This document shows, in pieces, positions 33,582 to 47,639 of a stretch of 64,000 nucleotides of DNA. Within the stretch, counting starts at the first letter, position 1; the number at the start of each line of letters is the position of its first letter. Source of the stretch: Paracoccaceae bacterium (GTDB taxonomy: Bacteria > Pseudomonadota > Alphaproteobacteria > Rhodobacterales > Rhodobacteraceae); the NCBI GenBank assembly GCA_947371955.1, contig CANBRQ010000004.1, positions 1-64,000 of the forward strand, in the 5' to 3' direction. The position numbers and the translations under genes are program-made. The notes under the pieces were generated by a model. It did not search any database and was not told the DNA's origin. It saw only the letters and a program-made list of their open reading frames with translations.

Positions 33582-34955
33582 TCAGGCTGTGGGTGCAAAC
33601 AGGTCTGTCACGGCAAACCGGGACACGTCAATCAGGCCCTTGTCCGAGATGCGCAGTTCGGGGATCACCACCAAGGCCAGCAGGGAGTGCTGCATGTAGG
33701 CATTGTTCAAAGTGCAGCCGCAGTCGGCCATTGCCGCGACGAGGGCTTGGGCCTTGTCGGCCACCGCATGCGCCGGGCGGTCCGACATTAGGCCCGCGAT
33801 GGGCAGTTCGACCAGTGCCAGTTCCTGCCCGTCACGCCACAGGGTCACGCCGCCACCGACCTCGGCCAGGCGGTTCGCGGCCAGTGCCATCTGGTGGCGG
33901 TCTGTGCCCACCACGATCATGTGGTGGCAATCATGCGCAACCGTGGACGCTATGGCCATCCGCCCCGTGTAGCCAAAGTCCGAGACGAAAGCGTTGACCA
34001 CATCTCCCGTGGCCCGGTGCCTTTCGACCAAGGCGATCTGCGCGACCTCGCCCTGCCCCCCGACCTTGCCGTCCGTCACGGACAGATCGGCGGTCAATGC
34101 GCGGGTCGGGGCCTGATTTTCCACGATGCCGATGACGCGGGCCGTTACCTGTGTCGCCCCATTTGGGGCTGGAATGGCGAAATCCTCGGCTGTTTTGGCC
34201 GCACCCATCCGAACAGTGGCGCGAGCGTCTGCCGGCCAGTCGTAATGCGGGCAGGTCACGGTCAGGCGTCCAGCCTCGGCCACGGAGATCCCCCGCGCAA
34301 AAACCCGCTCGATCGGCAAGGCGCGCAGGTCCGAGGTCAGGATCAGATCAGCCCGCCATCCAGCTGTGACGGAGCCCAGTTCCCGCTCCAGCCCGAAATG
34401 GGTGGCAGTGTTGATTGTGGCCATCTGAAGCGCAATCAACGGATCGCAGCCACAGGCTATGGCGTGGCGGACGGCCCGGTTCATATGCCCTTCATGCATC
34501 AGCGTGCCAGAATGGCAATCATCGGTGCACAGCAGAAAATTGCGCGGATCAAGGCCCTTTTGCGTGATCGACGTGATCTGGCTCTTGATGTCATACCACG
34601 CCGATCCCAGCCGCAGCATTGACCGCATACCCTGCCGCACCCGGTCGATGGCATCGCTTTCCCGCGTGCCCTCATGGTCGTCCGAGGGGCCGCCCGCGAC
34701 ATAGGCGTGGAAGGGAATGCCTCGGTCTGGGCTGGCGAAATGCCCGCCCACCACCTTGCCGGCGCGCATCGTCGGGGCAATCTCCTCCAGCATCTGCTGG
34801 CTGCCATTGATCACATCGGGAAAGTTCATCATCTCACCCAGACCAATGATGCCCGGCCAGCCCATCGCCTCGGCCACGTCGTCAGGGCCGATCTCGAACC
34901 CCGTCGTCTCTAGCCCGGGGGCGGAGGGCGCGCAGGAGGGCATTTGGGTGTCCAC
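33582..34955 (-). pseudogene. Adenine deaminase, N-terminally truncated and fused in frame to an IS3 OrfB fragment
   Basis: QMPSCAPSAPGLETTGFEIGPDDVAEAMGWPGIIGLGEMMNFPDVINGSQQMLEEI...CTDDCHSGTLMHEGHMNRAVRHAI...; metal-site N-terminus missing; preceded by IS sequence. Confidence 0.8.
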
Positions 34956-35401
34956 GCGCAGCTTCCGGTCGAGGTTCAATGCGGTCTCGCCCTGCGGCGC
35001 ATAATGGAATGATGACCGCGAGATCGACAGCAGGTGGCCCTGCGCGCCAACCGACAGAACGGGATGGTTGCGTTCGATCATGCCCCGCCTCACTTCCCGG
35101 TCCAAGGTTTGAGGTTTCTTGCCAAAAAATCGTTGGCGACTGCCAACTCTCCGATCTTGGCATGCAGATCACCGAACGTGTCCTCGGCGATTTCGGCGCT
35201 GGCCGCCTTGGCGCAACGCTCAAAGATGCCCGCAGCCCCCTCGAGCAGCGCCTTCTTCCATTGATGGATCATCGTCGGATGGACCTCATAAGCGGCCGCC
35301 AGATCCGACACCGTGCGCTCGCCCTTCAGCGCTTTCAACGCGACGCGGGCCTTGAACGCCGCGTCATGGTTCCTGCGTTTCGGCAGCTCTGTTCTCCTCA
35401 T
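34956..35401 (-). mobile_element. Truncated IS3-family element: intact orfA and N-terminal orfB stub
   Basis: OrfA 35090-35401: [63 protein letters not shown]... OrfB stub: MIERNHPVLSVGAQGHLLSISRSSFHYAPQGETALNLD. Confidence 0.85.
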
Positions 35402-35780: not shown

Positions 35781-37682
35781 ATGGGCAAAACTGGGCCCTC
35801 TTGCAGTCAAATGGCCGACCACTTAGAAAATGAGATCAAATATCCAATGCCTGAGGATGACGTGGTTCGCATTCCCGACAGCGCGCAAGACAATGCGCAA
35901 GATATATCGCAAGATTTCAACAAAATTCAATCTGACGTTGCAGTCGCGAAGGTGGCTGGAGACTGGCAAGGGGTCGCGGCGCTGCTGGCAGAGGTTCGAA
36001 CGCAACCCGATCACCCATGGCCGCAATCGGCCTTATCGGATCTAGCAACAGCACTGCAAAATCTGGGGCAGCTGGAAGAGGCTGACAGTCTGTATGCGAC
36101 GCTGCGCGAACGGTGGCCTGGGCGCGCGATCGGCTGGTCGGGACGCTCGTCCATCGCCCGACTGCGGGAAGATTGGCCTGCCGTGGTCGAGGGCTGGCGT
36201 GATTGCCTTGCCCGTTTTCCCGCTCAGGAAGTCGCATGGTGGCGTATTGGTCTTGTCGCGGCGCTGCGCAAGCTTGGCGATGTCGCGGCAGCAAGATCAG
36301 CCGCGACAGAGTTGCGGGATCGCTGGCCGAATGATCCGGCAGGCTGGCAGTTTGGCGCGGAACTGGCCCAGCAAGCTGGCGATCTTGAGGCGGCGGCGGT
36401 GGACTGGCAGGCCTGCCTGAATCAATTTCCATCACAACAGAAGCCAGCTTGGTGGGCGCAATTTGCAAGCACCTTGCAAAAACTTGACCGGCTGGACGAA
36501 GCAGTACAGGCCTGCGCCTCCTTGCAGGCTGGCTGGCCGGACGAACCGGCCTCTTTGCGCGTTGCAGCCGAAGTGGCTGCAGCGCGATCAGATTGGTCAT
36601 CCGCTGCAGATTTGTGGAAGACGTTCTTCGCGCGTTTTCCTGGTGCCGCGACGCCAGATCAATTCTTCAGTTACGCGACCCTTGTGGTCAAAGCCAACCG
36701 ACGGGACGAACTGCCAGAACTGGTCGAGCGGGTGGGCAAGTTGTGGCCCCGGGCTTTGGCGCTTGACCCTGAGTTGCGCGGCGGACCCAAGGCCCAGATG
36801 GCGCTAAGGGTCTGGCTGTGGCAGGCGCAATTCAGCCTCAAGAACGGAGAGCCTGCTAGAGCGCATAGAATTCTTGAAGGCTTTCCCGCGGACATTAACT
36901 TGTCGGTCAAAGCCGAAGAATCACGTATCGTCGCTCGCGAGATGATGGACCTCGGCGAGGGCTATGGCCCAGAACGTTCTGCGGGTCTTGGGGATCGAGG
37001 ATTTGAAAGCTGGCCATCAGCGCAAGTTTGGCGCTGCCCGGAAGGGTCTGACCGGGCCATTTTCCTGTTTCCCGGTGGTGGGGATGCCTTCTGGATCGCG
37101 ATGCGGACGCTGCACGGTTTCTTGCGTCAATTGGGGTGTCAACTTGTATTCCTGATGGACGAAAGTCGGTCAATATACCTGCCTCCCTCTGCCGACGAAA
37201 GCCACGCACTGGGCAACCAATTGCGCGAAATCGCCGCGTCTCTCGGGGCCACTCAGATCTATTGCGCCGGCACTTCCTTTGGTGGCTATGCGGCGTTGAG
37301 GTTTGGACTGGAACTGGGGGCAAAGGCAGTTCTGGGGTTCGGGGCAATCACAGATCCAAGACGACAGAAGCTGGATCACTTTCAGCGCCAGCTTCTGGAG
37401 CGTATTCGGCGCGAACAACCGGATCTGGTGATAGATGCCGCTGAACTGTATCTGAATGCCGAAGTCCGGCCCTTGGTGACGCTGATTTATGGAGCGGAGC
37501 ACAAGGTCGATGTGACTGACGCACAAAGGATGCGCCATGTGCCTGGCGTCACCTTGATGCCCATCGCAGGATATGGCGACCATTCGATCATGCGCTGGTC
37601 GATTGCCAACAAACGCTTGGTTCCGCTGTTTCGGGAAATGTTGGGCGACACGCCGATGATGGCACAAAGGGCGGTATCATGA
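35781..37682 (+). CDS. Trp-rich TPR-like repeat protein with C-terminal alpha/beta-hydrolase (thioesterase-like) domain
   Basis: Repeats RWPNDPAGWQFGAELAQQAGDLEAAAVDWQACLNQFP...WW; C-terminus FLFPGGGDAFW...CAGTSFGGYAALRFGLELG (GxSxG)...GYGDHSIMRW. Start may be 35811. Confidence 0.75.
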   Translation: MGKTGPSCSQMADHLENEIKYPMPEDDVVRIPDSAQDNAQDISQDFNKIQSDVAVAKVAGDWQGVAALLAEVRTQPDHPWPQSALSDLATALQNLGQLEEADSLYATLRERWPGRAIGWSGRSSIARLREDWPAVVEGWRDCLARFPAQEVAWWRIGLVAALRKLGDVAAARSAATELRDRWPNDPAGWQFGAELAQQAGDLEAAAVDWQACLNQFPSQQKPAWWAQFASTLQKLDRLDEAVQACASLQAGWPDEPASLRVAAEVAAARSDWSSAADLWKTFFARFPGAATPDQFFSYATLVVKANRRDELPELVERVGKLWPRALALDPELRGGPKAQMALRVWLWQAQFSLKNGEPARAHRILEGFPADINLSVKAEESRIVAREMMDLGEGYGPERSAGLGDRGFESWPSAQVWRCPEGSDRAIFLFPGGGDAFWIAMRTLHGFLRQLGCQLVFLMDESRSIYLPPSADESHALGNQLREIAASLGATQIYCAGTSFGGYAALRFGLELGAKAVLGFGAITDPRRQKLDHFQRQLLERIRREQPDLVIDAAELYLNAEVRPLVTLIYGAEHKVDVTDAQRMRHVPGVTLMPIAGYGDHSIMRWSIANKRLVPLFREMLGDTPMMAQRAVS

Positions 37683-39487
37683 ATACAGCAGACGTTCCGT
37701 TCGACGTGGAAGAAACCGAAGGCACGGTAGCAGCACGGTTTCGCAAGGTCGCAACTGCTATGCCGGACACGCCTGCCGTGTCGGATGGAAAGTCCACTCT
37801 GACATTTGCCGAACTGGATGCGCGAACCGATCAGGTCGCAGCTGCGTTGGCAGGGCTGGACCGTGCCAGGCCCGTGGCGATCGTTATGGCGCATGAGATC
37901 GCTTCTATCGTTGCTTTCATCGGGGTTTTGAAATCCGGTGTGACCGGATTGCCGGTTGACCCGAAGGCCGCCCCCGAAGGGGTTGAACAGGCATTGGCGC
38001 AAGCGCAAGTCATCCTCACCGAACTGCAGTTCATCGACTGGTGTCGCGAGAAGGCGCCCGGCGTGCCGGTGATGACCGAATTTGACGCGCAAAGGACCGA
38101 ATGGCACGAACCGGAACCCCGTGACGCCGCGATGATCTATCTGACCTCGGCCACGACAGGCCTGGCGAAAGGGGTGGTCCATTCCCAGCGCAATCTTTGC
38201 CGGTTCGGCTGGCAAAGGTCGCGCGACCACGGCATCGTCGCGGGCGACCGCGCTTCGGTCTTTTCTTCGATCGCGCATGTTCTTTCGGGGGTGTTCATTC
38301 TTGGCGCGCTTTTGAACGGTGCGACTGTGGAACTGTTCGAGATGCGCGGAAGGGGATTGACCTCGATGGGGCTTTGGGCCGCCGCGAGGAGGATCACCGT
38401 CCTGCAGGTGCCCACCGCCGTGCTGAGAGAGTTGATTCAAGTCCTCGACACGAGCCAGTCAAACTGGGAGCCACGGCAGGTGATCTTCGGCGGAGAAGCT
38501 ATTGCGTTCGGGGATCTGCGCAAGGTCCGCGATCGGCTTGGCTGGACATGCGTCCTGATCAACATGATGGGCAGCGCCGAAGCTGGCATCGTGACGAAAT
38601 GGGCGGTCGATCTGCTGCTGCTGGACGAAGATGGCGTGGTGCCGGTGGGGTTCCCGGTTGCAGGTCAAACCATTACGATCGTCGACGATGATCAGGTCGA
38701 ACTTCCCGCAGGCGACTACGGCGAAACTGTCGTGTCGGGAAGCCATATGGCGCTGGGCTATTGGCAGCGCCCTGATCTGACGGCGGATCGGTTTCGGGAT
38801 CACGTGGCGAAAGGCCGGTCTTTCCGGACGGGCGATCTTGGCCTTGTACGGCCCGACGGGCTGCTTGAACTGCATGGTCGCAAGGATCACCTGATCAAGA
38901 TAAGGGGCAACAGTCTGAACCTTGCCTATGTCGAAACCGTGTTACGCGGCATGGATGGAATTGCCGAAACCGCGATCACGGCGGTCAAGGACGGTGGGGG
39001 AACCTCTCGGCTGGTGGGCTACGTGAAGCTGGAATCCGGGGCAGAGGGCACTGAAATTGATCTGCGCCGGCGCTTGAGCGCGGCTTTGCCGAATTTCATG
39101 GTACCGTGGAAGGTCGTCAAACTGGACGAATTCCCGTTGACCGCCGGCGGTAAAGTAGCGCGCCGTGATCTGCCAAAGCCCAGTCGGCAACGCGCTCTGT
39201 GGATGCCGCCCTTCGTGGCACCCAAGCCCGGACCTGAATCGGTTCTGGCAGAGGTCTGGAGCGAGATCCTTGAGATGGATGCCATCGGGCGCGATGACGA
39301 TTTCTTCGACTTGGGAGGGGACTCGATGGATCTCGTTTCCGTGGCCGCCGGCTTTGCCGAGCGTCAGGAAGTGTCGTTGGAAGATATCGATCTTTTTAAG
39401 GAAAGCACACTTGCAGGCATGGCTTGGGTGTTCGAAAGCTACCTTCTGGCGGCTCAAATGGCACATCGCTCCAGCGTCAGAAGTTAG
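37679..39487 (+). CDS. Adenylation (AMP-forming) + phosphopantetheine carrier didomain protein
   Basis: YLTSATTGLAKGVVHSQRN (A3-like), MGSAEAG, FRTGDLGLVRPDGLLELHGRKDHLIKIRGNSLNLAYVE (A7/A8), GGKVARRDLP (A10), DDFFDLGGDSMDLVSV carrier site. ATGA overlap with previous gene. Confidence 0.88.
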   Translation: MNTADVPFDVEETEGTVAARFRKVATAMPDTPAVSDGKSTLTFAELDARTDQVAAALAGLDRARPVAIVMAHEIASIVAFIGVLKSGVTGLPVDPKAAPEGVEQALAQAQVILTELQFIDWCREKAPGVPVMTEFDAQRTEWHEPEPRDAAMIYLTSATTGLAKGVVHSQRNLCRFGWQRSRDHGIVAGDRASVFSSIAHVLSGVFILGALLNGATVELFEMRGRGLTSMGLWAAARRITVLQVPTAVLRELIQVLDTSQSNWEPRQVIFGGEAIAFGDLRKVRDRLGWTCVLINMMGSAEAGIVTKWAVDLLLLDEDGVVPVGFPVAGQTITIVDDDQVELPAGDYGETVVSGSHMALGYWQRPDLTADRFRDHVAKGRSFRTGDLGLVRPDGLLELHGRKDHLIKIRGNSLNLAYVETVLRGMDGIAETAITAVKDGGGTSRLVGYVKLESGAEGTEIDLRRRLSAALPNFMVPWKVVKLDEFPLTAGGKVARRDLPKPSRQRALWMPPFVAPKPGPESVLAEVWSEILEMDAIGRDDDFFDLGGDSMDLVSVAAGFAERQEVSLEDIDLFKESTLAGMAWVFESYLLAAQMAHRSSVRS

Positions 39488-39519
39488 CACGTTCGTGCGT
39501 GGTAGTCGGGGAAATTGGA

Positions 39520-42500
39520 ATGGGTGACGGGGCCGTTTTGACCAAAGCTCCCAGCTACAAGGCGTTGGAACCAGCGGTCCTTTCGGCAAATGAAACCTTG
39601 GATTGGCAACGGGTGACAACCCTGCTGGCTTGCGTTCACGAGCATCCACAGCAGGCTTGGCCTTTAGCCGCTTACTTGCATCTGGCAACTGCCCTGCAAC
39701 ACTTGGGGCGGCTGGACGAGGCGGACGGCATCTACGGCAAGCTGTGTGACCAGTGGTCCGATCGGTTGGCAGGTTGGTGGGGCCGCATCTCTGTTGCCAA
39801 AGCACGGGCGGATTGGCCCGCGGTTGCCCAAGGCTGGCGGGAGTTTATCGCTCGTTTTCCCGATCAGGAAGTTGTGGGATGGCGGCTTGGCCTTATCGGG
39901 GCCTTGCGGCGACAAGGCGATCTGGCGGCGGCCAGACAAGCCGCTGCCGCGCTGCGGGACCGCTGGCCTAACGAACCGGCCGGCTGGCAACTCTGCGCCG
40001 AAATTGCTGTAGATCTTGAAACCGCCGCGCGGAATTGGCAAGCGTGCTTCGATCGGTTTCCTGACCTGCAAATACCGATCTGGTGGTCACGCTTTGCCCA
40101 GGTCTTGCACAAACTGGGCCGCGCGGCCGACGCCGCAGAAGCCTGCGCCACCTTGCGCACTCGTTGGCCCGACGACCCCTCCGGCTGGCGCCTTGCCGCC
40201 CAATTCTTAAGTGATGCACAAGATTGGCCGGGCGCGGCCCAAGCTTGGGCGGATTGTATCGAACGGTTTCCTGAACTTCACACCGTCTCGTGGTGGTTGG
40301 CGCTTGCACTTGCGCAAAGCCGATTGGAACAGGTCGACGCCTTGGCGCAAACGAGAGCCGCAATCCGGACGCGGTGGCCTGATCATCCATCGACTTGGTT
40401 TGAATTGGCCCTTGCCAGCAGTAGAAAAGGCAACTGGCCCGAAGCGGCCCGTCAATGGGATAATTGCCTCAAGCGGTTTGATTTGCACAAGGATGCGCTT
40501 TTTCTGACAAGATACAGCAATGCGTTGATCCGGGCAGGACGGATGCCAGAGGCGGCGATCTGGATCGCCAAATTACGGGCACTGGACCAGAAGAACAAAG
40601 ACTGGCTTGTGCTTCGGCTGGAATTGTTGATCGCTGAGGGAGACGCGCGAGGTGCGCTACGCGAGTTGCAGGACCTGTCTGGCCATCCCGCTTTTTTCGA
40701 TGCATTTCCGGCGTCGAAAATGGCGACAGTTGTCTTCAACGCGGGTGTGGAACGCGACGCTGCGCTGTCTGTGCTTGCACCGTGGATTGGGGAGACGGAG
40801 GCCGAGCGTCAGATCGCGGCATCCTATGATCTGGAAGCACCTAGTGTGGATCGCCTTGCAGCACCGGACCGACAGGGGCGGCGCATCCCCGCTCGTGTCG
40901 ACACGGCTTTGGAGATGCGTCGCCGGCTTCGGTCGTTGGCCCGCGAAAGGACCTGTGCCCGTTTTGATGCGGTGGTCCTCTCTGCGCTGATGATGTTTGA
41001 CCGGACCAATCTGACACGACTCTTGCAATTGGCCTGCCGTCGGTTCCCGGCGTCCCGGTCGCGCATCCTGCTGGAAACAACGTTGAACTGCAGGACCATC
41101 GCGGCGAGCGAGCCCGATCAGGTTTTCGCCCAACGCTGGCGAAACATCTTGCCGCAACCTGAGATTTCCATTGCTGGTCAACTGGCAGGGCGACCTTGGC
41201 GGCGACTGGTCTGCGCCGTGATGGTGTGCGACGAAGACGAACTCTTGCCGCTTTTCATGGACCACTACTGCAAGCTTGGGGTGGAAAGCTTCATCATTAT
41301 CAACAACGGCTCCGCCCGACACCCATCCGAAGTGCTGACCGGTTGCGATGCAGAGATCACCTATGTCGAGGCACCGTTCTCGTTCCGGGCTGCGCGGCAT
41401 GGCATGGCTTGGATCAATGAGATCCTGGAGCTTGGCCTGTGTGACTGGCTGCTGTTCGCAGACTCGGACGAGTTGCTGGTATATCCTGGCGAAGACGAGG
41501 TCAAACTGCCGCAATTGCTGGATCATTTCGATCGTCGCGGTGAAACGGCCATGACGGCTCTAATGGTCGATGTCTTTGATCCCGGCATGGTTCAAGACGG
41601 GACAGTTTCAAGCAATCCTGAAGATCACACCCTCTTCTCGGCCAACCACAACAGGAACGGCGGCGTCTTTTCGCGTTGGCAACGCAGGCATGACGGCTAT
41701 CCGGCACCGGGCATCGTCAGCCATGACCCGAACAAGACGCCGCTGGTCAAGGGCTCGGCCGGGTTGCGATACACCAACAATCACTATGTCACCTCTTGCA
41801 CGCCTGCGGAAACCTCGGGGGTTTTTCGTCATCTGAAGCTGTTGCGCGACCGTGAGTTGATCAACAAAACGATGGCTGAGGTGATGGATCATCCCAGAGT
41901 GCGCGGGCGCGGGGTTACGTGTGTCGGCCGCCATGTGGACCTGGCAGGTATTGGCAACGAAAGCATCTTCGAACGTAGCACCCTCGCTGAGTTTTCGATG
42001 AAGCGTTTGCTGAGACTTGGCTATTGTCTGGCTGATGCGGACTGGCGAGAAGGGCTCCCGGCGCCATTGCCCGCCGACCGCCGGACCCCTGCCGCCCGTT
42101 TGCGGCACGACATGTCGATACGGTTTGTCCCAGAGCTGGTCAATTTTCCCTTGATGAATGAACCCCTGCCGGACGTTCTGATAGCGCTGGAGTATCTGTC
42201 AAAAGTTGGGAACAGAGATGTTTTCCGGCGTTTACTGACAGCCCAGCTTGAACGGATCGGGCTGCAAGAGGTGGCCCGGGCCATGGTTTTGTTCTCGGCG
42301 GCAATCTGGGGTCGACGGAAAGCGGTTGACCGGACGATGGCCGCAACACTTCGCGCCATCGCGAAGGCCGGCGCATCTGTATCCGTGGCAGCCCTTTGTG
42401 AGATTGCCGACGCACTGGCCTTCAAGCCAAATCTTGCCCTCTTGCTGCTGAATGCCGTCAATCAAGCCAATCCGGATGATCCAGAAGTTGCGCGGCGGCG

Positions 42501-43512
42501 GTTGAATTTGTTGGTCATGCAGGGTGACAGGGTTGCAAGCTTCGGCGCTCTGAAAGGCTTCACGCCCAGTCTGGACGATGGGTCCGTCTACAATCATCTG
42601 CACTTGTTGGCTGGTGTCCGCGATTGGGCGCAACACAATGACGTGATGGAAGACCTGCTGAATGCGCCTGACCTGCGGGCAAACCCGATGCAGTTGCTAC
42701 GGATCAATGTTATCCCGGATGTCCCAACGCGTCGGCACTTCCTGCGCAAACTTCTGACATGCGTCGAAAATAGCGTGCAAACTGGCCACTATGCTGCAGT
42801 CTACCTGTCATTGCTCCACCTTTTGGGCGAGAAAACCCGGCTGGCCGACGCTTGCAATGACCTTGCGCCCGGCCTGCCCGCCGGGCCGAGAGAGTACTTC
42901 CGCAGGCTTTTGGCCGCACAGGCCGGTGGGCCGCCAGTGAACCGTATCTGGGGGGTCGGTCTGTCAAAAACTGGCACGACCAGCATGAACGATTACTGTG
43001 TCAGTCTGGGTATGTTGGGTGCGCATTGGGTCAATCCCGTGACGCGCGCGCTTTTGGGCAGTGAGGATGCCGATCTGTTTGACGTTGTCTCTGACACCTC
43101 CATCGTCCATCTGGCCCGCGTCAACGGTGTTCCAGCAGGGCGCCGCATCATTACCACCACACGCGACTTCAACTCTTGGTCAAAGTCGTTTTACAGCCAT
43201 TTTGGCTCAAATCTGTTCGTGCAGCAGCCGGCTACCTTCGACACGATGCGTGATTTGGTTCTAAGCGGAGAGCAATTCCGGTTTGGCCAACAATGGACAT
43301 CGATCCACATTGAACTGTATTTCCGTTTCCGGAATCTGCGGGAGGCATATGATTATCACACTGACTGGACGCAATCTTTCGCAAATGACAACCATCCGCA
43401 TCTGCTTTTGCCGCTAGAAATGCCGGACTCGGAAAAAGCCAGCAAGCTATCGGAATTTGCAGGCCGGCCCAAGGCAGCGAAAGTCTATCCTCACGCGAAC
43501 CAGAGAAAATGA
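39520..43512 (+). CDS. Multidomain TPR-like repeat + glycosyltransferase family 2 + sulfotransferase fusion
   Basis: Trp-rich repeats; middle CAVMVCDEDELLPLFMDHYCKLGVESFIIINNGS...WLLFADSDELLVYPGEDE (GT2 DxD-like); C-terminus NRIWGVGLSKTGTTSMNDYCVSLGMLGAHWV...RRIITTTRDFNSWSKSFYSHFG (PAPS sulfotransferase motifs). Confidence 0.82.
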   Translation: MGDGAVLTKAPSYKALEPAVLSANETLDWQRVTTLLACVHEHPQQAWPLAAYLHLATALQHLGRLDEADGIYGKLCDQWSDRLAGWWGRISVAKARADWPAVAQGWREFIARFPDQEVVGWRLGLIGALRRQGDLAAARQAAAALRDRWPNEPAGWQLCAEIAVDLETAARNWQACFDRFPDLQIPIWWSRFAQVLHKLGRAADAAEACATLRTRWPDDPSGWRLAAQFLSDAQDWPGAAQAWADCIERFPELHTVSWWLALALAQSRLEQVDALAQTRAAIRTRWPDHPSTWFELALASSRKGNWPEAARQWDNCLKRFDLHKDALFLTRYSNALIRAGRMPEAAIWIAKLRALDQKNKDWLVLRLELLIAEGDARGALRELQDLSGHPAFFDAFPASKMATVVFNAGVERDAALSVLAPWIGETEAERQIAASYDLEAPSVDRLAAPDRQGRRIPARVDTALEMRRRLRSLARERTCARFDAVVLSALMMFDRTNLTRLLQLACRRFPASRSRILLETTLNCRTIAASEPDQVFAQRWRNILPQPEISIAGQLAGRPWRRLVCAVMVCDEDELLPLFMDHYCKLGVESFIIINNGSARHPSEVLTGCDAEITYVEAPFSFRAARHGMAWINEILELGLCDWLLFADSDELLVYPGEDEVKLPQLLDHFDRRGETAMTALMVDVFDPGMVQDGTVSSNPEDHTLFSANHNRNGGVFSRWQRRHDGYPAPGIVSHDPNKTPLVKGSAGLRYTNNHYVTSCTPAETSGVFRHLKLLRDRELINKTMAEVMDHPRVRGRGVTCVGRHVDLAGIGNESIFERSTLAEFSMKRLLRLGYCLADADWREGLPAPLPADRRTPAARLRHDMSIRFVPELVNFPLMNEPLPDVLIALEYLSKVGNRDVFRRLLTAQLERIGLQEVARAMVLFSAAIWGRRKAVDRTMAATLRAIAKAGASVSVAALCEIADALAFKPNLALLLLNAVNQANPDDPEVARRRLNLLVMQGDRVASFGALKGFTPSLDDGSVYNHLHLLAGVRDWAQHNDVMEDLLNAPDLRANPMQLLRINVIPDVPTRRHFLRKLLTCVENSVQTGHYAAVYLSLLHLLGEKTRLADACNDLAPGLPAGPREYFRRLLAAQAGGPPVNRIWGVGLSKTGTTSMNDYCVSLGMLGAHWVNPVTRALLGSEDADLFDVVSDTSIVHLARVNGVPAGRRIITTTRDFNSWSKSFYSHFGSNLFVQQPATFDTMRDLVLSGEQFRFGQQWTSIHIELYFRFRNLREAYDYHTDWTQSFANDNHPHLLLPLEMPDSEKASKLSEFAGRPKAAKVYPHANQRK

Positions 43513-43963: not shown

Positions 43964-45367
43964 GTAACCGTCCGGCCTGACCGCTACCGGTTCCGGCGCT
44001 AGGGCAGCAGGTCATCGACATTGGTGATTTTGCAGTCCGGGATGCGTGGGAGGGTGTCGGCAAGCCATGCGTGGGGGTCGACGGCGTTGACCTTGGCCGT
44101 TTCGATCAGGGTGTAGGCGATGGCTTCAGCCTTGCCGCCAGCTTCGGAGCCGACGAAGAGGTAGTTCTTGCGGCCCAAGGCGATGGCACGCATGCCGCGT
44201 TCGGCGGCGTTGTTGTCGAGTTCCAGGATGCCATGGTCGAGGTATGGGCGCAGGCGCTCCATTCGGGTGAGAGGGTATCGGATTATTCCGGCCAGCGGAG
44301 ATTTTGCCGAGATCGTGGTGAGTTGCTTGGCCAGCCAGACCTTCAGGTCGTCGAAGACCGAGGCGGCGTGGGCTTGTCGAAGTTCGACACGGCGATCCGG
44401 CGGGGAGCCGCGTGCGTCCTTCTCGACGGCATAGAGATGCGCGATCCTGCCGATAGCCCCTTCGGCGATCGGGGAGCCTTGGGACCGATGGATGCCGACG
44501 AACTTGCGCCTGACATGGGCCATGCAGGCGACCTCGCGGATCGCCCCGGTTCGATAGAGGTCTTCGAACCCGGCATAGCCGTCGGCATGCATCCATCCGC
44601 GATAGCGGGCAAGGTGATCCTTCGGGTGCTGGCCCTTGCGGTCGCCGGAGAACCGATACCATGCCGCTGGTGGAGCGTCCCCGCCCCAGGGGCGTTCGTC
44701 GCGGGCATAGGTCCAAAGCCGTGCCGTCTGGGTTTTGCCGGTGCTGGGTGCGAGCATGCTGATGGGTGTGTCATCGGCGAAGATCGCCTCGGCTGACAGA
44801 ACATGTCGACCGATGGCGTCGGCCAAGGGTTCCGGCAGGGCGGTGGTCTTGGCCTGACCAGTCGGTCAGGGTGGACCGGTCGAGGTCGAGCCCCTCGCGG
44901 TCAAAGATCTGGCTCTGGCGATATAGCGGCAAATGATCGGCATACGTGCTGACCAGCACATGGGCGAGAAGGCCCGGCCCCGGGCGACCGCGTTCGATTG
45001 GGCGTGAGGGCAGCGGGGCTTGCACGAAGCGTTCGCAGCAGGCGCAGGTCAGCCGGGGACGGACGATGCGGTTCACGACGAAGCGTCCCGGAGCGTATTC
45101 CAGTTCTTCGGTGACATCCTCCCCGATCCGGCGCAGGCGCCCGCCGCAATCGGCACAGGCATCTGCGGCGGGCTGAGCTCAACCTCCATCCGCGGGATAT
45201 GATCGGGAATCGGGCGGCGCTTGGGTTTGTCCTTCTCCCCGATGTCCGGCAGCTTCATCCGCGCGGTCATCGCCGCGGCGGCTATCTCGCTCGTCTCGAG
45301 GGCCAGTTGCAGTTGCTCGGCGGTCTCGCACGAGGCTCCGTACCGGTGCGCCCGGTGCCCGGCCAAC
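43964..45367 (-). mobile_element. IS66-family element remnant, tnpC with two frameshifts
   Basis: MADAIGRHVLSAEAIFADDTPISMLAPSTGKTQTARLWTYARDERPWGG...[45 protein letters not shown]; upstream parts in other frames (NRIVRPRLTCACCERFVQAPLPSRPIERGRPGPGLLAHVLVS...). End near gtaaccgtccggcc at 43964. Confidence 0.85.
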
Positions 45368-46737
45368 TGAACCGCGCCGGGTTTGCCGGGTGCTGATTGA
45401 TCTTAGTTACGCGGCCATGGCTTCAGTTTCCAGTGCTGCGTAGTGGTTTGCTTCGGCTTCTGCGGGCGGGCTGTTCCCGATGGGCTCGAGGAGGCGGCGG
45501 TTGTTGAACCAGTCGATTCATTCGAGGGTTCCATATTCGACGGCTTCGAAGCTGCGTCACGGACCACGGCGGTGGATGACCTCTGCCTTGAACAGACCGT
45601 TGATCGTCTAGGCAAACGCGTTGTCATAGCTGTCACCAACGCTGCCCTCGGACGGTTCGATGCCTGCCTCGGCCAGCCGCTCGGTGTATTTGTTGGACAG
45701 ATATTGGGCGATCCGCGGTCCGAATGGTGGACAAGGCCCATGCCCTTGGTTGGTCGGCTTTCATGGACCGCCTGTTCGAGGGCATCCAGAACGAACCCGG
45801 CATGAGGTGAGGTGCTGACGCGCCAGCCGACGATCTTGCGGGCATAGGCGTCGATAACGAATGCCACATAGGCGAACCCTTTCCAGGTTGCGACATAGGT
45901 GAAGTCTGAAACCCAAAGCATGTTCGGCGCGGGCACGCGGAACTGGCGGTTCACGCGGTCCAGCGGGCAGGGCAGTTTCTTGTCGGGGACCGTCGTCTTC
46001 TGCGGCTTGCCCCGGATAATGCCCTGGATATTCATGGCATTCATCAGCCTGGCTACGGTGCAGCGCGCCACATCGAAGCCTTCGCGTCGCAACTGCCGCC
46101 AGACCTTGCGGGCGCCGTAGACCTGCCAGTTGGCGTCGAAAACGCGGCTCGGATCTCGGGCCGAAGCGCCTCATCCCACTTGGCACGACCTGACAGCCGC
46201 GCCGGATCGGCACGCTTTGCGAGGTGGTCGTAAAAGCTGGACGGGGCGATCGGCAGAACTTCGCAGATCGGCGTCCTTCAGGGCCAACGATCCACTGGAT
46301 CGTTGGCAGGACCCTTCGGACCCCCGTGCGCATTGCGATGCGCATCGATGAAATCCACCATCACTTCGACCGGCGGTCGAGCTCCGCCATCGCAAAATAC
46401 GCGCTGGCTTTGCGAAGAATCTCGTTCGCCTGGCGCAACTCGCGGTTCTCGCGTTCCAACGCCTTCATGCGCTCGGCCATCTCGCTGGAGACGCCCGCCC
46501 GCTTACCGCTGTCGACCTCGGCCTTCTTGACCCACTCATTCAGGGTGTGCCCCGATCAGCCGATCTGCGCGGAAATCGACATGATCGCCTGCCAACGTGA
46601 GCCATGCTGCCCCGCATTGTCGAGGACCAGCCGCACGGAGCGTTCGCGCACTTCCGGGGAAAACTTGTTCGTTGTCTTGCTCATGATGCTCCATCCTACT
46701 CAGGAGTTGGAGCCTTCGGCAAACCCGGAGCGGTTCA
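45368..46737 (-). mobile_element. IS3-family insertion sequence, degenerate (stop in orfA, frameshift in orfB), with terminal inverted repeats
   Basis: OrfB: MRREGFDVARCTVARLMNAMNIQGIIRGKPQKTTVPDKKLPCPLDRVNRQFRVPAPNMLWVSDFTYVATWKGFAYVAFVIDAYARKIVGW...HHSDRGS. OrfA: MSKTTNKFSPEVRERSVRLVLDNAGQHGSRW. Ends TGAACCGCGCCGGGTTTGCC (45368) / TGAACCGCTCCGGGTTTGCC (rc, 46737). Confidence 0.88.
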
Positions 46738-47396
46738 ACAGCCCGCAATAGACCGCCCAGCTTCTTCTCGTCAGTAATTGCTGCCCGTGGCTTTGCCGTC
46801 GGTCGGATCAAGGCAGCTTGCAGCGAAAATGTCGGATCAGTCTCGGCAAGGCCAACAGCGACGGCGTACTTGAAGACGGCCCCGATCTTTGCGCGCAGAC
46901 GTTTGGCCGTCTCATAGTTTCCCTTCGCTTCGATCTTGCGAAGGCAGACCAAGATCATGGGTGCCGTAACCTCAGAAATGGGGCGACTGCCAAAGCTTGC
47001 GATGGCCGTTGCAAGCAACCACTCGGTCATTGCTTGCGTTGCGGGCGCTCTGCCTTCGGCCGCCGCCTTGGCCATAAAGTCCCTCGCCATGGCTTCAAAT
47101 GTATTGCCACGACGGGCACGGTCCTGACGTTGCTGATCTTTTTTCGCTTCTCCAGGATCTTTGCCAGCAGCCAGCAGAGCGCGGGCTTCATCCTTCTTCC
47201 CACGGGCCTGCGCCAGAGTGACTTCCGGATACATGCCGATGGAGAGCAGCTTTTCTTTCCCATCAATCCGGTACTTGAAGTGCCACAGCCTTGATCCAGT
47301 CGGCTTGACCGTCAGGAACAGTCCTTCAAAGTCCGAAACCTTGTAAGGCTTCTCTTTTGGCTTCAGAACACGAATCGCAGCATCGGACAAAGGCAT
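46738..47396 (-). pseudogene. Tyrosine site-specific integrase (P4-like, DUF4102 N-terminus), truncated by IS3
   Basis: MPLSDAAIRVLKPKEKPYKVSDFEGLFLTVKPTGSRLWHFKYRIDGKEKLLSIGMYPEVTLAQARGKKDEARALLAAGKDPGEAKK...; catalytic C-terminus lost, ORF tail is IS3 sequence. Confidence 0.88.
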
Positions 47397-47487
47397 CGTG
47401 GGGGTATCACCTTTTCAGGGTCTACCGGATACCCCCAACAACACCCCCACTTTGGTGGTATCCCACTAGATGATGTTGGATGACGTC

Positions 47488-47553
47488 GGACAAACCAGAT
47501 CACTGGAAACCCTAATATTACAGGGGTTTTCGCATGTCACTTGATCATATCGG
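47488..47553 (+). repeat. Right copy of att-like direct repeat adjacent to tRNA
   Basis: See 33284-33350; lies between integrase start and tRNA 3' end. Confidence 0.6.
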
Positions 47554-47562
47554 ATGTGAAAG

Positions 47563-47639
47563 TGGTGGCGAGGGAGGGACTCGAACCCTCGACCCTGCGA
47601 TTATGAGTCGCATGCTCTAACCAACTGAGCTACCTAGCC
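47563..47639 (-). tRNA. tRNA with CAU anticodon (Met elongator, or Ile2 if lysidinylated)
   Basis: GGCTAGGTAGCTCAGTTGGTTAGAGCATGCGACTCATAATCGCAGGGTCGAGGGTTCGAGTCCCTCCCTCGCCACCA: D, anticodon (CTCATAA loop) and T arms intact, CCA encoded; one acceptor mismatch. Confidence 0.93.

Follow-up and report, generated by a model that had tools for sequence, protein, structure and literature searches.

Among the described systems that come closest to the locus presented here is FlmG of Caulobacter crescentus, a flagellin glycosyltransferase in which a tetratricopeptide repeat (TPR) domain is combined with a glycosyltransferase domain of the GT-B type; binding of the flagellin acceptors depends on the TPR domain, which suffices for it by itself, whereas no such binding is seen with the separate glycosyltransferase domain (PMC7591256). 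A related architecture was found in a 64,000-nucleotide stretch of Paracoccaceae bacterium DNA (assembly GCA_947371955.1, contig CANBRQ010000004.1, positions 1 to 64,000 of the forward strand; the whole stretch is referred to as the window), in which three rightward genes, designated genes 1, 2, and 3, form an operon-like block (Table 1). Like FlmG, the predicted gene 3 protein comes from an alphaproteobacterium and has an N-terminal TPR domain fused to a glycosyltransferase. It differs in that its catalytic domain belongs to the GT2-type family Glyco_tranf_2_4 and not to GT-B, in that a sulfotransferase domain has been added, and in that its repeat array is shared with the putative hydrolase encoded by gene 1. 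This shared Trp-rich array is the main subject of the analysis.

Other parts of the block also resemble described proteins or loci. As in the nonribosomal peptide synthetases (NRPSs) LgrA and tyrocidine synthetase 1, an adenylation domain is joined to a carrier domain in gene 2, with the carrier-motif Ser and the A10 Lys retained; unlike them, gene 2 encodes a stand-alone didomain with no condensation domain and with Val201 in place of the substrate-code Asp. The C-terminal domain of gene 3 resembles Sulfotransfer_4 (PF17784) in its family match and in a motif like the loop that binds 3'-phosphoadenosine 5'-phosphosulfate (PAPS), and it differs in following TPR and GT2 domains within one fusion protein some 1330 residues long. 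Finally, at loci of Sphingobium RAC03 and of genome G034, a TPR-fused hydrolase of the gene 1 family lies near glycosyltransferase genes and near genes that encode a carrier protein and an AMP-forming ligase. In those loci, however, the acyl carrier protein (ACP) and the ligase are separate proteins, P450 and pyruvyl transferase genes are present, and the TPRs are not Trp-rich and are unrelated to the gene 1 module.

A Trp-rich TPR module common to genes 1 and 3

Residues 46-323 of gene 1 aligned collinearly with residues 45-319 of gene 3 at 46% identity (129 of 278 positions; BLASTP, E = 3e-63), interrupted by only one gap of 3 residues. The alignment scored 682, compared with a maximum of 89 among 300 composition-preserving shuffles. 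Similarity at the generic TPR level alone was excluded, as no other TPR protein of the same genome reached an E value of 1e-3 with gene 1, and a search of the genome with gene 1 recovered only two copies of the module, those in genes 1 and 3. A preliminary description made from the sequence had proposed that the two proteins share a Trp-rich repeat, that the similarity is long and collinear, and that it reflects a duplicated module; the first two statements were confirmed by the alignment, and the third was supported by the genome search and by the comparison of individual repeats described below.

In gene 1, the module consists of a leading helix followed by TPRs in the order A0-B1-A1-B2-A2-B3-A3, in which A-type repeats (36 residues, ...WWxxxAxALxxLGRLxEAxxxxAxLRxRWP) and B-type repeats (34 residues, ...GWxxxAExAxxxxDWxxAAxxWxxCxxRFP) alternate to give a 70-residue period. 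The repeats of both proteins matched Pfam models TPR_14, TPR_6, and TPR_19 above cut-off, with TPR_16 also matched in gene 3, where the array extends past the shared module to about position 40620. TPRs are helix-turn-helix repeats of 34 residues with a family consensus at positions 4, 7, 8, 11, 20, 24, 27, and 32, a definition to which the array conforms. When the repeats were mapped to that consensus by hand, the Trp residues of B-type repeats fell at the usual aromatic positions 4, 17, and 24, with Pro at position 32, and the Trp of A-type repeats fell at position 31, before the conserved Pro32. Each unit is made up of two conventional TPRs whose Trp residues occupy consensus positions and is not a new repeat fold. 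Trp made up 6 to 8% of the module versus 1.6 to 1.9% of the remainder of the two proteins, and 16 of the 17 module Trp residues of gene 1 were common to gene 3.

Identity between repeats occupying the same place in the two proteins was 0.50 for A0, 0.59 for B1, 0.67 for A1, 0.65 for B2, and 0.47 for A2, and for these first five repeats the identity matrix peaked on its diagonal. Repeats compared within either protein were 0.22 to 0.45 identical. Because each repeat from A0 to A2 matches its own counterpart, a whole array was copied, as opposed to two TPR regions being similar by chance. Past A2 the similarity dropped (0.38 for B3 and 0.17 for A3) and no longer peaked on the diagonal.

Origin of the module

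At the DNA level the two copies of the module were 58% identical overall and 43% identical at third codon positions, and since so little DNA-level identity remains, the copy is not very recent. Nonsynonymous and synonymous divergence (NG86) were estimated at 0.45 (dN) and about 1.5 (dS); the ratio, a comparison that the preliminary description had put forward, suggests purifying selection, with the reservation that dS is near saturation.

One module-bearing ortholog was available for comparison. A search of the genus identified, in the congener G684, a full-length gene 3 ortholog (1372 amino acids [aa], 42% identity over 1337 aa) with all domains, including the module. Neither gene 1 nor gene 2 lay beside it, and no second module-bearing protein was found in the G684 assembly, which is 89% complete. 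A more distant gene 3 homolog from another genus, G1060, aligned only with gene 3 residues 401-1359 (31% identity over 989 columns); it was rejected as a possible module carrier, as its N terminus is unrelated.

Among 281 aligned columns of gene 1, gene 3, and the G684 ortholog, 52 residues were common to genes 1 and 3 only, 35 to gene 3 and the ortholog only, and 28 to gene 1 and the ortholog only. The excess was concentrated in gene 1 residues 60-253, with 44 columns specific to genes 1 and 3 versus 17 specific to gene 3 and the ortholog (P = 0.0007, a value that is optimistic because the boundary at residue 253 was picked after the repeat matrix had been seen). Past that residue, in B3-A3, the counts were 8 and 15, respectively (P = 0.21). 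This distribution fits copying or conversion of A0-A2 between the two genes after their split from the G684 lineage, an event that is nevertheless old in absolute terms, given 43% identity at third codon positions and a dS of about 1.5. As the module is present on the G684 ortholog and the repeats of the hydrolase relatives are unrelated to it, the module of gene 1 is most likely of the gene 3 type, taken up or exchanged within this locus. In the simplest history suggested by these sequences, the gene 3 lineage already had the module, of which the hydrolase received a copy here.

An ancestral operon with modules on both genes, inherited vertically without recent copying and followed by loss of genes 1 and 2 in the G684 lineage, is an unlikely alternative history. 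It agrees with the age of the copy (43% identity at third codon positions) and with the slightly closer resemblance of gene 3 to its ortholog than to gene 1 in B3-A3. Residues 60-253 show the opposite, so that at least a later conversion would be needed, and no second genome with a gene 1/gene 3 module pair was found in the genome searches.

A class-wide profile search with the module returned weak matches in 21 of 385 genomes, the source genome included, and the five matches that were inspected were rejected as generic TPR proteins without the RWP/RFP pattern. Also rejected were a phylum-level match in G363, which was judged to be another TPR protein from its weak similarity to a C39-peptidase/TPR model, and a match in G681, which was weak. 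Pattern scans of genome contigs with gene 1 and the module alignment, and of viral contigs with the module, revealed no relative, although short peptide patterns may miss some.

Catalytic domains, relatives, and genomic setting

The identity of the gene 1 hydrolase was taken from its relatives. A nucleophile-elbow motif (G-T-Ser499-F-G-G) is followed by Asp577 and His601, and all three residues were invariant across seven members of the hydrolase family, in which the motif has the form G-x-S-x-G/S. This arrangement of a G-x-S-x-G nucleophile, a downstream acid, and a His is that of a predicted alpha/beta hydrolase fold; profile searches of PDB gave weak alpha/beta hydrolase matches (E = 0.03 or worse).

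The start of gene 2 overlaps the stop codon of gene 1 (ATGA). Its product matched the Pfam AMP-binding (1.8e-53) and PP-binding (2.7e-10) families, and its PDB matches were NRPSs. Val201 aligns with the Asp of LgrA that binds the alpha-amino group (GrsA position 235), the residue expected of NRPS domains that adenylate alpha-amino acids, and because of this replacement the acid that gene 2 activates is probably something other than an ordinary alpha-amino acid. Compared with plasmids, gene 2 had no match at an E value of 1e-60 or better.

The likely start of gene 3, chosen from the sequence and from alignment with the G684 ortholog, is the ATG at 39520; the open frame reaches back to a TTG at 39424, and module residues are numbered in that frame. 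The Glyco_tranf_2_4 domain and its DxD-type motif were conserved in the G684 and G1060 homologs. In the C-terminal domain, a PAPS-loop-like motif (GLSKTGTTSM) and a second motif (TTRDFNSWSKSF) were recognized by eye and were largely conserved in the same two homologs; together with the family match, these putative 5'-phosphosulfate-binding and 3'-phosphate-binding elements are consistent with a PAPS-dependent sulfotransferase. Defense-system models had no match to genes 1 to 3.

Table 1. Features of the gene 1-3 block (window coordinates) and of comparison loci (locus coordinates)
Feature	Location	Strand	Description
Gene 1	35781..37682	+	633-aa open reading frame (ORF); N-terminal Trp-rich TPR array, C-terminal alpha/beta-hydrolase-type domain
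Shared module in gene 1	35916..36749	+	Residues 46-323; BLASTP versus gene 3 and unit dissection
Gene 1 hydrolase domain	37020..37679	+	Residues 414-633; 7-sequence alignment
Gene 2	37679..39487	+	602 aa; AMP-binding adenylation domain (residues 21-492), phosphopantetheine carrier domain (522-582)
Gene 3	about 39520..43512	+	About 1330 aa; TPR array, GT2-type glycosyltransferase, helical region, sulfotransferase
Shared module in gene 3	39556..40380	+	TTG-frame residues 45-319
Gene 3 Glyco_tranf_2_4 domain	41230..41520	+	Pfam 6.4e-14; DxD-type motif (DSD)
Gene 3 Sulfotransfer_4 domain	42949..43506	+	Pfam 2.2e-8, above cut-off
Sphingobium RAC03 (plasmid pBSY17_1) locus	L101:8858-17472		Hydrolase relative with ACP and fatty acyl-AMP ligase
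G034 locus	L103:6551-15830		AMP-binding ligase, P450-like ORF, ACP, GT2, and pyruvyl transferase near hydrolase relative
RTX-type/type-I-secretion loci	L064:13139-14008; L102:9885-11261; L106:14330-16999; L099:18575-20878; L043:8785-16753		

Relatives of the gene 1 hydrolase domain occurred in Rhodobacteraceae, Sphingomonadaceae, and Azospirillum. Several had TPRs or other N-terminal extensions, and in those from Tritonibacter and Marinovum the repeats were C-terminal to the hydrolase. Compared with the gene 1 module, the repeats of these relatives gave E values of 0.01 or worse, against 3e-67 for gene 3, and Trp made up 0.7 to 2.7% of their first 300 residues versus 6% of the module. Hydrolase relatives were found near a carrier protein in four loci outside the window, including one in Azospirillum TSH100, where the ACP gene abuts the hydrolase gene, and one in A. 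lipoferum 4B, which also has an ACP; the other two are the Sphingobium RAC03 and G034 loci, which in addition have an acyl-AMP or AMP-binding ligase. Other relatives lay in a capsule cluster (Novosphingobium P6W), in pseudaminic-acid clusters (Tritonibacter and Marinovum), and near an ABC-2 type exporter (G050) or were fused to a pyruvyl transferase (G239).

The loci of G034 and Sphingobium RAC03, which represent two orders, had in common a TPR-hydrolase, a polysaccharide pyruvyl transferase, an acyl-AMP ligase, a P450, an acyl carrier protein, and a glycosyltransferase, possibly constituting an unstudied glycan-acylation locus. On Novosphingobium plasmid pP6W2, a capsule/Kdo locus encoded, two genes from a hydrolase of the gene 1 family, a 1359-aa protein (L042:9789-13868) with an N-terminal Sulfotransfer_3 domain and more than 1100 residues without a confident Pfam match. 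In five loci, RTX-type or type-I-secretion genes were located close to the gene 3 ortholog or to hydrolase relatives; their products could be, or export, protein acceptors, but RTX genes are common in these bacteria.

The gene 1-3 block has a GC content of 58 to 60%, below that of most of the window, and lies between insertion-sequence (IS) remnants. To its left, on the minus strand, 33582-35105 encodes an adenine deaminase without its N-terminal part (Adenine_deam_C and part of the amidohydrolase domain). By eye, this frame opens with an apparent IS3-type transposase fragment, with a transposase-like remnant continuing to about 35430, and this region, where the low-GC block begins on the left, looks like a rearrangement junction. 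The right flank (43999-47639) contains the C-terminal part of an IS66 transposase, fragments resembling IS3, and, next to a tRNA-Met gene (47563-47639), a tyrosine integrase for which arm-binding and central domains were matched and a catalytic domain was not. This flank looks like a decayed integrative island; the 3' end of the tRNA-Met had no exact repeat elsewhere in the window.

Possible roles of the module and the operon

The concave groove of TPR arrays is the usual binding site for their protein ligands. A plausible, if tentative, interpretation of the locus is that two unrelated enzymes have in common a rare Trp-rich TPR scaffold, part of which was copied or converted within the operon, and that this scaffold may recruit both to a glycan-decorating assembly. 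Judged from its domains and neighbors, the operon would decorate a cell-surface glycan or glycoprotein: gene 2 would adenylate a carboxylic acid and then load it on its own carrier domain, the hydrolase fold of gene 1 would transfer or release the acyl group as an acyltransferase or editing thioesterase, and gene 3 would add sugar and sulfate. The genomic association with carrier proteins would be compatible with gene 1 as a putative type II thioesterase or acyltransferase on carrier-bound acyl groups. Less certainly, the matched arrays may direct the two enzymes to a common assembly, most likely by way of a shared protein acceptor or partner, and, by analogy with FlmG, whose TPR domain delivers its glycosyltransferase to flagellin, may thereby recruit the two activities to one acceptor.

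Several observations weigh against this interpretation. Between genes 1 and 3, the groove positions (2, 5, 9, 12, and 13) were the least conserved class, at 26% identity compared with 38% for the outer helix-B face and 75% for structural positions, which does not favor an identical ligand; the difference between groove and outer face was not significant (P = 0.28). As genes 1 and 2 do not accompany the G684 ortholog, the module does not necessarily serve both enzymes. No homolog of the whole gene 1-2-3 operon was found, and the proposal that genes 1 to 3 form a functional unit therefore derives from their order and overlap. The hydrolase relatives of G210, G020, and G035 had no carrier or ligase gene nearby. 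In addition, the lineages may have evolved at different rates, and a module tree of three sequences cannot be rooted.

The same conservation figures bear on two rival explanations. The module may be merely a solenoid spacer or stabilizer, copied by chance and without a common ligand, its identity a matter of history preserved by fold constraints. The contrast between 75% identity at structural positions and 26% in the groove agrees with this somewhat unlikely explanation, as do the tolerance of the hydrolase relatives for many unrelated repeat arrays at either terminus and the different N terminus of the G1060 homolog of gene 3. The copied patch, however, has kept its order and its Trp pattern (16 of 17 Trp residues shared), and outer-face identity across A0-A2 was 45% between genes 1 and 3 versus 29% between gene 3 and its G684 ortholog. 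The other explanation, that the arrays bind each other in a hetero-oligomer, a complex in which the hydrolase and the glycosyl/sulfotransferase are gathered about the carrier domain of gene 2, would suit the presence of homologous modules within a single operon whose genes overlap and an outer helix-B face somewhat better conserved than the groove (38% versus 26%, not significant). It appears quite improbable, as the G684 ortholog retains the module in a genome without the gene 1 module; for the same reason, docking of gene 1 to gene 3 was probably not the original role of the module. The preliminary description had suggested that the repeats attach the two enzymes to each other or to a shared partner or glycan, and both the G684 ortholog and the poorly conserved groove speak against the simplest forms of that suggestion.

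Recruitment of both enzymes to a glycan-decorating assembly could also be extended to the operon as a whole, with a common TPR adaptor, shuffled and homogenized by conversion, keeping the two glycan-modifying enzymes in step. This broader proposal is unlikely; if it were correct, an acyl-loading branch (genes 1 and 2) and a glycosyl/sulfotransferase branch (gene 3) would share an acceptor. If both enzymes are recruited to one acceptor, the G1060 homolog, without the module, and the G684 ortholog, without gene 1, would provide natural controls.

A few literature searches returned nothing specific on this architecture and no report on a TPR-hydrolase family associated with carrier proteins or acyl-AMP ligases. 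The comparisons presented here point to such a family as a recurrent one, accompanied by carrier proteins and acyl-AMP ligases at glycan loci of alphaproteobacteria, where sugar acylation is plausible. If the arrays of genes 1 and 3 do recruit both enzymes to one acceptor, the locus would represent a natural case of adaptor sharing between catalytic domains.

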